A DNA stretch of 64,000 nucleotides from Synechococcus sp. CCY 0621 (GTDB lineage Bacteria; Cyanobacteriota; Cyanobacteriia; PCC-6307; Cyanobiaceae): assembly GCF_019038465.1 (NCBI RefSeq), contig NZ_JAFKRH010000011.1, forward strand, positions 1 to 64,000, given 5' to 3'. A program made the translations under genes and the position numbers. The notes beneath the pieces were generated by a model. The model worked only from the letters and a program-made list of their open reading frames with translations, searched no databases and was not told where the DNA came from. Shown here piece after piece: positions 59,049 through 61,925 of the stretch. Every line of letters begins with the position of its first letter. The first letter of the stretch is position 1.

Positions 59049-59777
59049 ATGGCCGCCGACGCCAGCCTTGCGATCCAGCCCCTGTTCCCGATGGCCCTGG
59101 GCCGGGTGCAGCTGGCGCCCGACCCTCTTGACACAGCCCTGCTGCTGCAGCGGGCCCTGGAGCTGCGGGAGCAGAACCCCAGCGAGGAGGGCGTGGCCTG
59201 GACCGGGGATGTGCGTGGTGCCGGCGAGCTGCACCGCGACCCCCTGTTCGCCCCCCTGATCGGCCGCCTGGCAGGCCATGCCTCGCAATACCTGGAGGCG
59301 TTGGGATTTGATCGCCGGCGCGTGGCGTTGCATGCGCAGCGCAGCTGGCCGGTGCTCAGCGACGCCGGTGAACAGGTGGGGCGCCATCACCACCCCAATG
59401 CCCACCTCAGCGCCATCTACTACCTCAATGGCGATGGCCGTGGCCGCAGCGGTTGCCTGCGTCTGTTCGCCCCCCGGCAGGTGAATGAGCTGGTGCCGGG
59501 CCTGGCGCTGGGCCAGGACGGCCCGATCGATGCCACGGCGGCCCTCAACCAGCCCTGGCATGACGTGGCGCCCCGGGCCGGCCTGCTGCTGCTGTTCCCC
59601 TCCTCGGTTGACCATGCGGTGCTGCCCAACGACGACCCCGACGACACCCGCTTCTCGCTCAGCATTGACTTCGTTCTCACGGCTCCGGAGGCGGCGCCCC
59701 ATCCGGGGGAATACCTCGCCCCCCATCCCGGCCGCTGGCTGGTGATCGGGGAGGATGGCAACGCGTCGGGAGCCTGA
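59049..59777 (+). CDS. 2OG-Fe(II) oxygenase family protein
   Basis: This 242-aa protein resembles the putative 2-oxoglutarate/Fe(II) oxygenase family (TIGR02466-like). Candidate iron ligands lie in GRHHHPNAHLSAIYYL (about 113-128) and VDHAVLPN (about 192-199), with an Arg after it (TRFSLSIDF) that could bind 2-oxoglutarate. The substrate is unknown. The ATG at 59049 is chosen because upstream codons look non-coding. It leads a run of four same-strand genes. Confidence 0.78.
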   Translation: MAADASLAIQPLFPMALGRVQLAPDPLDTALLLQRALELREQNPSEEGVAWTGDVRGAGELHRDPLFAPLIGRLAGHASQYLEALGFDRRRVALHAQRSWPVLSDAGEQVGRHHHPNAHLSAIYYLNGDGRGRSGCLRLFAPRQVNELVPGLALGQDGPIDATAALNQPWHDVAPRAGLLLLFPSSVDHAVLPNDDPDDTRFSLSIDFVLTAPEAAPHPGEYLAPHPGRWLVIGEDGNASGA

Positions 59778-59819
59778 GCCGCCCCTGCCACCGCCGCCCC
59801 TCCCGGACCCCCATCCCCC

Positions 59820-60173
59820 GTGCCCGAGACCACACCAGCGACCAGCCCAGAGCCCACCGTCTTTCAGGTCAGCGCCAGCCTGGATGGCGTTGCCCACAGT
59901 TTTTCCTGCCGCAGCGACCAGACGGTGCTGAGTGCCGCCGAGGCCGCCGGGGTGCCCCTGCCCAGCTCCTGCTGCTCGGGGGTGTGCACCACCTGCGCCG
60001 CCCTGCTGCGCAGCGGCACGGTGCACCAGCCCGATGCCATGGGCGTGAAGGCCGAACTTCAGGCCAAGGGCTACGCCTTGCTCTGCGTCTCCTATCCACG
60101 TTCTGACCTCGATCTCCTGGCCGGCCAGGAGGACGCCCTCTACGAGGCCCAGTTCGGTCAGTTCCAGAAGTGA
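59820..60173 (+). CDS. 2Fe-2S plant-type ferredoxin
   Basis: This 117-aa electron carrier has the 2Fe-2S ligands in SSCCSGVCTTCAALL (CxxxxCxxC pattern) and a distal Cys in ALLCVSYPRSD. A GTG start at 59820 is used. An N-terminal Pro/Thr extension precedes the fold. Its stop overlaps the next start (GTGA). It lies 42 nt after the oxygenase gene and could supply its electrons. Confidence 0.9.
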   Translation: MPETTPATSPEPTVFQVSASLDGVAHSFSCRSDQTVLSAAEAAGVPLPSSCCSGVCTTCAALLRSGTVHQPDAMGVKAELQAKGYALLCVSYPRSDLDLLAGQEDALYEAQFGQFQK

Positions 60174-60379
60174 GTTCCCTGGTGCCTCTGGAGCTGTGGC
60201 TGCAGGCCGCCCCCGGCCCCCGGCTGCCCCAGCTGCGCCAGGCGCTGGCCCGGGAAGCCCACCGCCTGGCCGGTGCGGGCGCTGAGCCGCTGCGCTGGGC
60301 GATCACGGCCGTGGATCCCCAGCGCGGCCTGCGGCTGGAGGGGATCGTCGTGGGCCCGGCGCCGACCCCCGGCCGTTGA
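60170..60379 (+). CDS. 69-aa protein, unknown
   Basis: This small protein (VPLELWLQAAPGPRLPQLRQ, then RWAITAVDPQRGLRLEGIVV) looks like a compact alpha/beta domain. It starts with GTG inside the ferredoxin stop and ends with a TGA overlapping the TTG of the DUF3326 gene. Coupling on both sides makes it very likely real. No family was recognised. Confidence 0.68.
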   Translation: MSSLVPLELWLQAAPGPRLPQLRQALAREAHRLAGAGAEPLRWAITAVDPQRGLRLEGIVVGPAPTPGR

Positions 60380-61482
60380 GCGCGTCAGCCCCGCCCCTGC
60401 CCACCCTGCTGGTGATCCCCACCGGGGTGGGCTGCGCCGTGGGGGGCTTCGCCGGCGATGGCCTGCCGGCGGCCCGACTGCTGGCGGCGGCCAGCGGCTG
60501 CCTGATCACCCACCCCAACGTGATGAATGCCGCCGCCCTCTACTGGAGCGACCGGCGCCTGCATTACGTGGAGGGCTGGAGCCTGGATCGCTTCGCCGCC
60601 GGCGAGCTGGCCCTGGCGCCGGTGCCCAGCCAGCGGGTGGGGGTGCTGTTGGATGCTGGTATCGAAGCGGAGCTGCTGCTGCGCCACCGCCAGGTGATTG
60701 AGGCCTGCCGCGCCAGCCTGGGGCTGACGATCGGCCCGGTGATCGGCAGCGACGTGCCCTTGGAGGTGAGCCTGTCGATCGGGCCCAGCGGCAGCAGCTG
60801 GGGCACCCTGGGCCGGGCAGATGCGCTGCTGCGGGCCGGTGAAGCACTGCTGGCCGCCGGGGCCACGGCCATCGCCGTGGTGGCCCGCTTTCCCGAGGAG
60901 CCCGGCAGCGACGCCCTGGCGGCCTACCGCCACGGCATGGGGGTGGACGCCCTGGCCGGGGCGGAGGCGGTGATCAGCCACCTGCTGGTGCGCCATCTGG
61001 GGGTGCCCTGTGCCCATGCCCCCGCCCTGGCGCCCCTGCCGCCCGATCCCGGGCTGGATGCGCGGGCGGCGGCGGAGGAGCTGGGCCACACCTTCCTGCC
61101 CTGTGTGCTGGTGGGCCTGAGCCGGGCCCCCTCCCTGCGGCCCGAGCCGGCCAGCGGCAACGGGTTGCTGCATGGCGCCGATCTGGGGGCGGTGGTGGCC
61201 CCGGCCGGAGCCCTGGGGGGTGAGGCGGTGCTGGCCTGCGCCGAGCGGGGCGTGCCCGTGATCGCCGTGGAAGGCAATCCGTGCCTGTTGCAGGTCAGCG
61301 GCGAGGCCCTGGGGCTGCCGGTGATCCCGGCCGCCACCTATGCCGAGGCGGCCGGGATCGTGCTGGCCCTGCGCGAGGGCCTGGATCCGGTGGCCCTGCG
61401 GCGCCCCCTGCCCCTGGCTCAGGGCTCGCCGAGGAAATCTCGCTTGCCCAGCTCCACGCCGTTGTGGCGCAGGATGTCGTAG
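60376..61482 (+). CDS. DUF3326 family protein
   Basis: This 368-aa protein (LLVIPTGVGCAVGGFAGDGL, THPNVMNAA, VEGNPCLLQVSGEALGLPVI) matches the cyanobacterial DUF3326 family, function unknown. The repeated small-residue loops hint at a nucleotide- or substrate-binding alpha/beta fold. It starts with TTG overlapping the preceding stop. The last 64 nt overlap the convergent DUF1993 gene. Confidence 0.8.
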   Translation: MSASAPPLPTLLVIPTGVGCAVGGFAGDGLPAARLLAAASGCLITHPNVMNAAALYWSDRRLHYVEGWSLDRFAAGELALAPVPSQRVGVLLDAGIEAELLLRHRQVIEACRASLGLTIGPVIGSDVPLEVSLSIGPSGSSWGTLGRADALLRAGEALLAAGATAIAVVARFPEEPGSDALAAYRHGMGVDALAGAEAVISHLLVRHLGVPCAHAPALAPLPPDPGLDARAAAEELGHTFLPCVLVGLSRAPSLRPEPASGNGLLHGADLGAVVAPAGALGGEAVLACAERGVPVIAVEGNPCLLQVSGEALGLPVIPAATYAEAAGIVLALREGLDPVALRRPLPLAQGSPRKSRLPSSTPLWRRMS

Positions 61483-61925
61483 GCGGTGGTGACGTGGAAA
61501 TAGACGTTGGGCAGAACGAAGAACAGCAGGAAACTCTGGCCGCTGAAGTGGAGCGTCTCGCTGCGGATCGTCAGCTCGATCGGCTTGGTTTCGCTGCCGT
61601 CGATCTGCTCAGGCAAGAAACCTTCCAGGCTGGCAAGTGTTGCTTTGATGCGTCCGATCAGTTCTTCAAAGCTGGCTTCGTTGTCGTCCATGGCCGTGCT
61701 TTCCACCCCGGCCAGCCGGGCCAGGCCGCGGCGGGCGATGTCGGTGGCGATCTGCACCTGGCGCACCAGGGGGAACATGTCGGGGTAGAGGCGCGCCTGC
61801 AACAGCACGGCTGGATCAATGCCTCTGGCTTCGGCGTGGGCTGCCGCCTTGGCCAGGATGCCGCTGAGGTTGTTCAGGCTGCGGGCCAGGGGCGGGACGG
61901 CCGCCCCGTGCATCGAGAGGGTCAT
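61419..61925 (-). CDS. DUF1993 family protein
   Basis: This 168-aa protein (SMHGAAVPPLARSLNNLSGI, RLYPDMFPLVRQVQIATDIA, LPNVYFHVTTAYDILRHNGV) matches DUF1993, a DinB-like helical-bundle family of unknown function. A conserved His in YFHVTTAY fits the DinB-type metal site. It converges on the DUF3326 gene with a 64-nt overlap. Confidence 0.85.
   Translation of the reverse strand: MTLSMHGAAVPPLARSLNNLSGILAKAAAHAEARGIDPAVLLQARLYPDMFPLVRQVQIATDIARRGLARLAGVESTAMDDNEASFEELIGRIKATLASLEGFLPEQIDGSETKPIELTIRSETLHFSGQSFLLFFVLPNVYFHVTTAYDILRHNGVELGKRDFLGEP

Follow-up and report, generated by a model that had tools for sequence, protein, structure and literature searches.

A 69-residue protein encoded between a ferredoxin and DUF3326 in cyanobacteria is the probable counterpart of the N-terminal domain of one-chain DUF3326 proteins

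We have analysed four neighbouring genes of Synechococcus sp. CCY 0621 (Cyanobiaceae; assembly GCF_019038465.1), located at 59,049-61,482 of contig NZ_JAFKRH010000011.1; positions 1-64,000 of this contig, 64,000 nucleotides (nt) in all, are called the window. On the plus strand, these genes encode, in order, a 2-oxoglutarate (2OG)-Fe(II) oxygenase-like protein, a [2Fe-2S] ferredoxin, a protein of 69 amino acids (aa), here named S69, and a DUF3326 protein. The new finding is that S69 is, as judged by profile-profile comparison, homologous to the N-terminal domain of DUF3326 proteins that other phyla make as one chain. Because of this homology, S69 and DUF3326 are probably subunits of one protein, and we favour, with some reserve, an explanation in which the ferredoxin is their companion. 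The initial annotation of the window had read all four genes as possibly one pathway and had suggested a stoichiometric complex of the ferredoxin with S69 and DUF3326. It was right on the S69-DUF3326 unit, which is strongly suggested by the natural one-chain forms in other phyla, for a reason invisible to it, namely the resemblance of the two proteins to the halves of a one-chain protein.

A divergent DUF3326 protein (33% identity) with about 80 extra N-terminal residues is encoded in the genome G019 (G and L numbers denote genomes and loci of this study). A genome scan led by this long form gave at least 551 relatives, of which the best 80 were kept; these are ranked by likeness to the long form and are no census of such proteins. 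They come from many phyla, and a strict length rule assigns the N-terminal domain to 45 or more of the 80. The domain, of about 80 aa, occurs on long DUF3326 proteins of Planctomycetota, Chloroflexota, Pseudomonadota, Fidelibacterota and others. When the alignment of S69 (52 rows) was compared with that of the long-form N-terminal domain (38 rows), hhalign gave a probability of 90.6, an E value of 1.3e-6 and a score of 33.6, whereas the best control scores were 14.1 for 100 column shuffles, 11.9 on reversal and 15.1 for windows of the long proteins that begin at residue 40 or beyond. The motifs fall in register, GEPLRWAIT...VEAVV of S69 with E-I-PVRFAVT...CELGVL of the long proteins, so that EPLRWAIT stands opposite IPVRFAVT, and the arginine is invariant in both alignments. 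The AlphaFold2 (AF2) model of S69, with a mean predicted local distance difference test (pLDDT) score of 91, has the order beta-alpha-beta-beta (E3-11 H18-34 E39-49 E53-62), and the fused domain in the model of the long homologue L114 has the same order (E2-11 H19-30 E35-45 E49-58). The two models were derived from separate alignments, the second without S69 rows, and it is the order of elements that was compared, not a superposition. The homology and the shared order of predicted elements are established by computation, as are the gene order, its conservation and the distinct class of the ferredoxin.

In a tree of 83 DUF3326 sequences, the 16 cyanobacterial proteins cluster together (100/100), separately from the rest. 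The 21 short forms from phages and from outside cyanobacteria lack the N-terminal domain and cluster (100/100) within the long proteins, a placement that reads as a later loss of the domain. The tree is unrooted with a bootstrap that had not settled, and it leaves both fission and fusion possible at the base. The long gene of G019 itself, a genome of the window's genus, lies on contig C58 (L089:2954-5477), overlaps an ATP-grasp open reading frame (ORF) and is 73% identical to L109 from Planctomycetaceae. This contig may represent contamination or transfer, and the long form had no match in the plasmid collection.

S69 is a real gene, because 76 of 87 cyanobacterial loci have a homologue immediately before DUF3326, because the exact 4-nt overlap recurs in 40 of these 76 adjacent pairs, and because dN/dS is 0.11-0.39 against 11 close relatives of the genus (11 pairs), indicating purifying selection. 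The residues Arg42-Trp43 are invariant in the 52-row alignment. S69 matched no Pfam family at E values up to 1, and no solved relative was found in the PDB by sequence. The 87 loci comprise 30 relatives, 30 best-scoring DUF3326 matches and 27 chosen for reduced or basal lineages (L088, a duplicate of L086, was left out), and their shares are not unbiased; the stretches reach about 1.5 kb upstream, and an absent neighbour is one absent within that stretch.

Of 290 genomes of the cyanobacterial class, 287 have DUF3326; of 14 controls, Synechococcus elongatus was the single one with DUF3326. S69 is directly upstream of it in 53 of 64 loci outside the window's genus and lies elsewhere in the genome in all 11 remaining DUF3326 genomes, so that it is present in 87 of 87. 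The ferredoxin is upstream in 62 of the 87 loci, comprising 56 of the 60 relatives and best-scoring matches and 6 of the 27 chosen loci. In the same 60 loci, which are not a random draw, S69 is likewise upstream in 56, indicating that the order extends beyond this genome; a DUF3326 gene mostly without ferredoxin and 69-aa neighbours, which would have spoken against the initial annotation, is not what cyanobacteria show. The ferredoxin as an obligatory partner did not hold up: among the 76 adjacent S69-DUF3326 pairs, 15 had none within the upstream sequence retrieved (e.g. L066, L068 and L074), and a ferredoxin occurred in 0 of 80 non-cyanobacterial and 0 of 69 viral stretches, compared with 33 of 37 in the cyanobacterial control. 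The ferredoxin is a common but dispensable companion.

In 11 genomes S69 does not immediately precede DUF3326; in 8 of these (G206, G137, G047, G026, G119, G099, G066 and G027), S69 is near a ferredoxin of the class found in the window, here called the Fed3 class after cluster d, indicating an independent link between S69 and the ferredoxin. In G027 about 535 nt separate the two genes, and in G206 the three genes still fit into about 3 kb; in G290, G039 and G112 S69 has no ferredoxin nearby. S69 is present in G110 and G122, where no DUF3326 was found, and neither was found in G108; these assemblies of 60-230 contigs may have gaps.

The four ORFs, the 42-nt gap between the oxygenase stop and the ferredoxin GTG (59778-59819) and the two 4-nt overlaps, GTGA (60170-60173) and TTGA (60376-60379), had all been correctly described in the initial annotation, as had the GTG and TTG starts. 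The features are listed in Table 1.

Table 1. Features of the ferredoxin-S69-DUF3326 locus in the window
Feature	Position	Strand	Basis
2OG-Fe(II) oxygenase-like gene, PF13759/TIGR02466; lineage-restricted neighbour, outside the conserved unit	59049..59777	+	Family scores; upstream in 18/87 loci, all family f1
Plant-type [2Fe-2S] ferredoxin, Fed3 class of cluster d; GTG start; C-x4-C-x2-C...C	59820..60173	+	Fer2 match, tree group, cluster d in PMC4284462
S69, predicted beta-alpha-beta-beta, invariant Arg42-Trp43 (GEPLRWAIT...VEAVV); GTG start, 4-nt overlap with ferredoxin	60170..60379	+	52-row alignment, AF2, homology to long-form N-terminal domain, purifying selection
DUF3326, likely catalytic subunit, with two alpha/beta lobes predicted from a long homologue; TTG start, 4-nt overlap with S69	60376..61482	+	PF11805, 58-row alignment, L114 fold

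The window's DUF3326 protein matched PF11805 with an E value of 4.2e-138 (460.4 bits against a cut-off of 25), residues 10-342 covering positions 2-337 of the model. The conserved motifs are PTGxG..GG..GD, HPNV.N, YVEG and AHAP; beside HPNV.N the cyanobacterial branch mostly has G-A-x-L-Y-W, whereas A-S-x-I-N-E is found elsewhere. In the AF2 model of L114, which is a long homologue and not the window protein (mean pLDDT 93), the DUF3326 part forms two alpha/beta lobes. Function could not be read from this fold: the best VIA-align matches, lumazine synthase for the second lobe (Z 9.8, root-mean-square deviation (rmsd) 4.0 over 131 residues) and MGD1 for the first (Z 9.5, rmsd 3.6 over 141 residues), represent generic alpha/beta lobes. 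A DUF1993 gene (61419-61925, minus strand) runs antisense to the last 20 or so codons of the window's ORF, the 3' ends of the two convergent genes overlapping at 61419-61482. Several relatives in the genus stop 16-22 codons earlier, and therefore the family end lies near residue 346-352; loss of a stop codon seems to have lengthened the window's protein by about 20 residues.

The window's ferredoxin matched PF00111 Fer2 with an E value of 1.8e-16 (60.3 bits against a cut-off of 21), and its four cluster cysteines read C-x4-C-x2-C...C, the cluster motif of plant-type [2Fe-2S] ferredoxins. In a tree of 108 columns, with paralogues from seven genomes and a bootstrap that had not settled, 70 distinct ferredoxins whose genes neighbour S69 or precede DUF3326 fall into one group that includes the window's (support 95/89). 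Nine PetF-like paralogues stand apart (100/100), and the eight C-extended paralogues group by themselves (99/86). Accordingly, the window's ferredoxin groups neither with the PetF-like (Fed1) nor with the C-extended (FdC2/Fed2-type) paralogues and is of a distinct class, the PetF-like label being taken from sequence and the FdC2/Fed2-type label from C-terminal tails in a tree without named PetF, FdC2 or slr1828 sequences. The oxygenase matched PF13759 with an E value of 8e-20 (71.6 bits against a cut-off of 27) and TIGR02466 with 64.2 against 62.5.

Two other neighbours recur in cyanobacteria. The module is immediately preceded by an ATP synthase gamma gene in at least 17 of the 87 loci, from six families (L024, L032, L033, L035, L036, L057, L059, L062, L064-L066, L068, L070, L072, L080, L082 and L085); in the window this gene does not immediately precede it. 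The module may have had an old home where the atp genes end. Of 16 wide cyanobacterial loci, 9 have a gene resembling CAAX-type intramembrane proteases after DUF3326, e.g. L093:6812-7420; the one member scanned matched PF02517 with an E value of 4.8e-18.

Outside cyanobacteria, 73 loci had a usable focal gene (72 of the best 80 relatives and L089; eight of 81 were excluded). Directly upstream of DUF3326 there was an AdoMet_dc-like gene in 25 and an NspC-like gene in 21 of them, i.e. a pyruvoyl- or pyridoxal-phosphate-type decarboxylase in 46 of 73, never both among the listed genes; the family names come from profile matches of one or two members each. Two AdoMet_dc-like proteins scored 27 and 29.9 against an AdoMet decarboxylase (AdoMetDC) equivalog cut-off of 75.65, in keeping with the cited parts of PMC10407285 and PMC9992855, in which AdoMetDC homologues are reported to decarboxylate ornithine or arginine. 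On viral contigs there were 69 DUF3326 loci, with an AdoMet_dc-like gene directly upstream in 38 of 68 and within three genes in 45 of 68; by gene context these include likely near-duplicates (L255/L256, L295/L296, L298/L311, L280/L313 and L253/L315). These decarboxylase neighbours hint at amine or amino-acid chemistry. Of 97 cyanobacterial genomes, AdoMet_dc was found in 50, nspC in 18 (3 over its cut-off) and a C-domain of the carboxyspermidine dehydrogenase type in 20 (4 over its cut-off). Neither decarboxylase is universal there, and therefore the substrate cannot simply carry over. Among further non-cyanobacterial neighbours scanned with Pfam (65 of 119 and 30 of 38 proteins), the commonest of the first 25 families listed were short-chain dehydrogenases, with 3 of 65.

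The AdoMetDC-like and DUF3326 pairs of viral contigs are from IMG/VR (L228, L229:2250-3622 and L250-L315). The L229 pair overlaps by 4 nt and lies beside an ORF that reads like a phage tail protein; neither its DUF3326 protein nor its decarboxylase had a match in the phage collection at an E value of 1e-5. A Septu-like gene pair lies directly upstream of the decarboxylase and DUF3326 in 9 of the 73 loci (L114:3358-7317, L116:2813-7242, L126, L145, L146, L148, L153, L168 and L169). L114 and L116 were scanned with PADLOC, which identified PtuA (4e-62) and PtuB (5.7e-46) in L114 and left the last two genes of L114 without a match. A four-gene defence operon is possible; a search of open-licence literature for Septu with polyamine terms gave no relevant title among the matches listed. 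Upstream of other long DUF3326 genes we found DUF350, DUF1190 and GSP_synth (L117, L125, L134 and L139) or PspA/IM30 and GSP_synth (L143, L152, L160 and L161); one member each of the DUF350, DUF1190, glutathionylspermidine synthase-like and PspA/IM30 genes was scanned.

We propose that S69 and DUF3326 together make up one two-chain protein, which would most likely be an enzyme. DUF3326 would provide a two-lobed alpha/beta body whose active site may be lined by PTGxG..GG..GD, HPNV.N, YVEG and AHAP, and S69, as the detached N-terminal beta-alpha-beta-beta domain, would dock on this body and present its invariant arginine. The overlapping genes may hold the synthesis of the two near 1:1. A dedicated Fed3-class ferredoxin would belong to the operon in most cyanobacteria, and its simplest role would be that of electron donor, with S69 as the bridge. 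We consider a physical complex of S69 and DUF3326 likely and catalysis by it probable, while electron donation by the ferredoxin is a tentative suggestion and an amine or amino-acid substrate is doubtful.

Several observations weigh against this explanation. With plain HMMER, the S69 profile gave 0.4 bits against one fused N-terminus, where shuffles reached 7.8, and it matched 0 of the 80 non-cyanobacterial loci, so that the homology is visible only by profile-profile comparison. A group of shorter proteins outside cyanobacteria lacks an S69-like domain and none was found nearby; therefore the domain is not needed everywhere. No solved relative of DUF3326 was found in the PDB by sequence (best E value 0.14), and Foldseek with the L114 model gave a best E value of 7.4e-3 and nothing at or below 0.001. 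There is no invariant cysteine in the 58-row alignment of DUF3326 and no flavin or Fe-S domain recognised by Pfam, and therefore no visible acceptor for electrons from the ferredoxin; the 15 adjacent pairs without ferredoxin count on the same side.

S69 might instead be primarily a partner of Fed3, as a docking or regulatory adaptor, with DUF3326 as a co-regulated neighbour and not a constant partner. The eight genomes in which S69 accompanies the ferredoxin away from DUF3326 fit this, as does G110, which keeps the ferredoxin-S69 pair. However, S69 has its homologue in a domain that long proteins carry fused to DUF3326, it stays with DUF3326 in the 15 loci whose retrieved stretch has no ferredoxin, and the non-cyanobacterial stretches have no ferredoxin at all; we regard the adaptor role as improbable. 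It is also unlikely that the three proteins share only their expression and act separately, without a complex, in housekeeping metabolism. The module is often found where the ATP synthase genes end, and such a site may simply ensure steady expression, but natural one-chain proteins exist in other phyla and the 4-nt overlap is kept at more than half of the S69/DUF3326 junctions.

A step of the known spermidine routes, taken in trans with AdoMet decarboxylase or carboxyspermidine decarboxylase, would account for the decarboxylase genes beside DUF3326 in other bacteria and on viral contigs. On the other hand, DUF3326 is nearly universal in cyanobacteria whereas the enzymes of those routes are patchy, which rules out strict dependence on the known polyamine decarboxylases there, and the cyanobacterial residues beside HPNV.N differ; this reading is very unlikely. 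The four-gene pathway of the initial annotation, in which the ferredoxin would feed the oxygenase, is hardly credible. An oxygenase gene precedes the module in 18 of the 87 loci, from five genera, here at a distance of 42 nt, but all of these are in the window's own family (f1), and it was in no sampled locus outside that family. This lineage restriction argues against it as a fourth member. Moreover, 2OG-Fe(II) oxygenases take electrons from 2-oxoglutarate and need no ferredoxin.

A wider extension of the subunit explanation is that DUF3326 would be the body of an unrecognised amine or amino-acid enzyme family, paired with decarboxylases in bacteria and phages (usually as one chain in bacteria), and two-chain, light-driven and ferredoxin-coupled via the small subunit in cyanobacteria, perhaps inherited by plants; taken whole, we consider it rather unlikely. 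A potato protein bears the DUF3326 name in the cited part of PMC13294368.

The ferredoxin-69aa-DUF3326 cluster is itself already known. It was printed in 2014 by Cassier-Chauvat and Chauvat as cluster d, fed3 - duf650 - duf3326, with Fed3 as slr1828 of Synechocystis (PMC4284462, as far as cited here). Their table gives no fed3 for Gloeobacter and several Prochlorococcus strains, and some of our loci likewise keep S69-DUF3326 with no ferredoxin in the stretch retrieved. The cited parts of two papers conflict on this gene in Synechocystis: fed3 is called essential in PMC4284462, whereas fx3 (slr1828) was fully deleted in 2022 with a photomixotrophic growth defect like that of a pyruvate:ferredoxin oxidoreductase (PFOR) mutant (PMC8887894). 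The open-licence literature found by name, in the parts at hand, is silent on DUF3326 function and has nothing linking S69 with DUF3326 or DUF3326 with decarboxylases. The finding matters considering that DUF3326 is in nearly all sampled cyanobacterial genomes, yet has no function assigned in that literature. With S69 as the putative missing domain, an unknown neighbour becomes a subunit to co-express in any assay, and the role of the ferredoxin becomes directly testable. The decarboxylase link in other phyla and phages gives the first substrate class to try.

Among known systems, cluster d has the same three genes in the same order as the window; in the cited part of PMC4284462 the middle gene is called DUF650 and the small gene is not joined to DUF3326 as one protein. 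No family named DUF650 was among the 12 weak families matched by 52 S69 proteins, although a renamed family would hide the old name. FdC2/Fed2, of chlorophyll synthesis, is likewise a plant-type [2Fe-2S] ferredoxin widespread in cyanobacteria (cited parts of PMC8408499 and PMC10947542). FdC2 corresponds to Fed2 and not Fed3 in PMC10947542 and most of PMC8408499, one sentence of which makes Fed3 the exception among Synechocystis ferredoxins; in our tree, the C-extended paralogues, assigned to the FdC2 type by their tails, form another supported group than the window's. The S69 model aligns with dodecin (2v19_B; rmsd 2.7 over 62 residues, Z 4.6-5.1, amid unrelated chains of equal Z) and with the N-terminal domain of the lysine 5,6-aminomutase small subunit (1xrs_B; rmsd 2.1 over 51); Z values of 4.6-5.3, which span both, represent a common arrangement that unrelated chains equal, and neither protein matches S69 in sequence. 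The DUF350, DUF1190, GSP_synth and PspA neighbourhoods of long DUF3326 genes resemble the polyamine-linked PspA operons of PMC11237479, a paper that a search of the open-licence literature for the name DUF3326 did not return. The long one-chain DUF3326 proteins share with the window's the DUF3326 domain (30-37% identity to L089) and have the homologous N-terminal domain. Unlike the cyanobacterial proteins, they form one chain, have a decarboxylase as usual neighbour instead of a ferredoxin, bear other residues beside HPNV.N and fall into a separate group of the tree (100/100).

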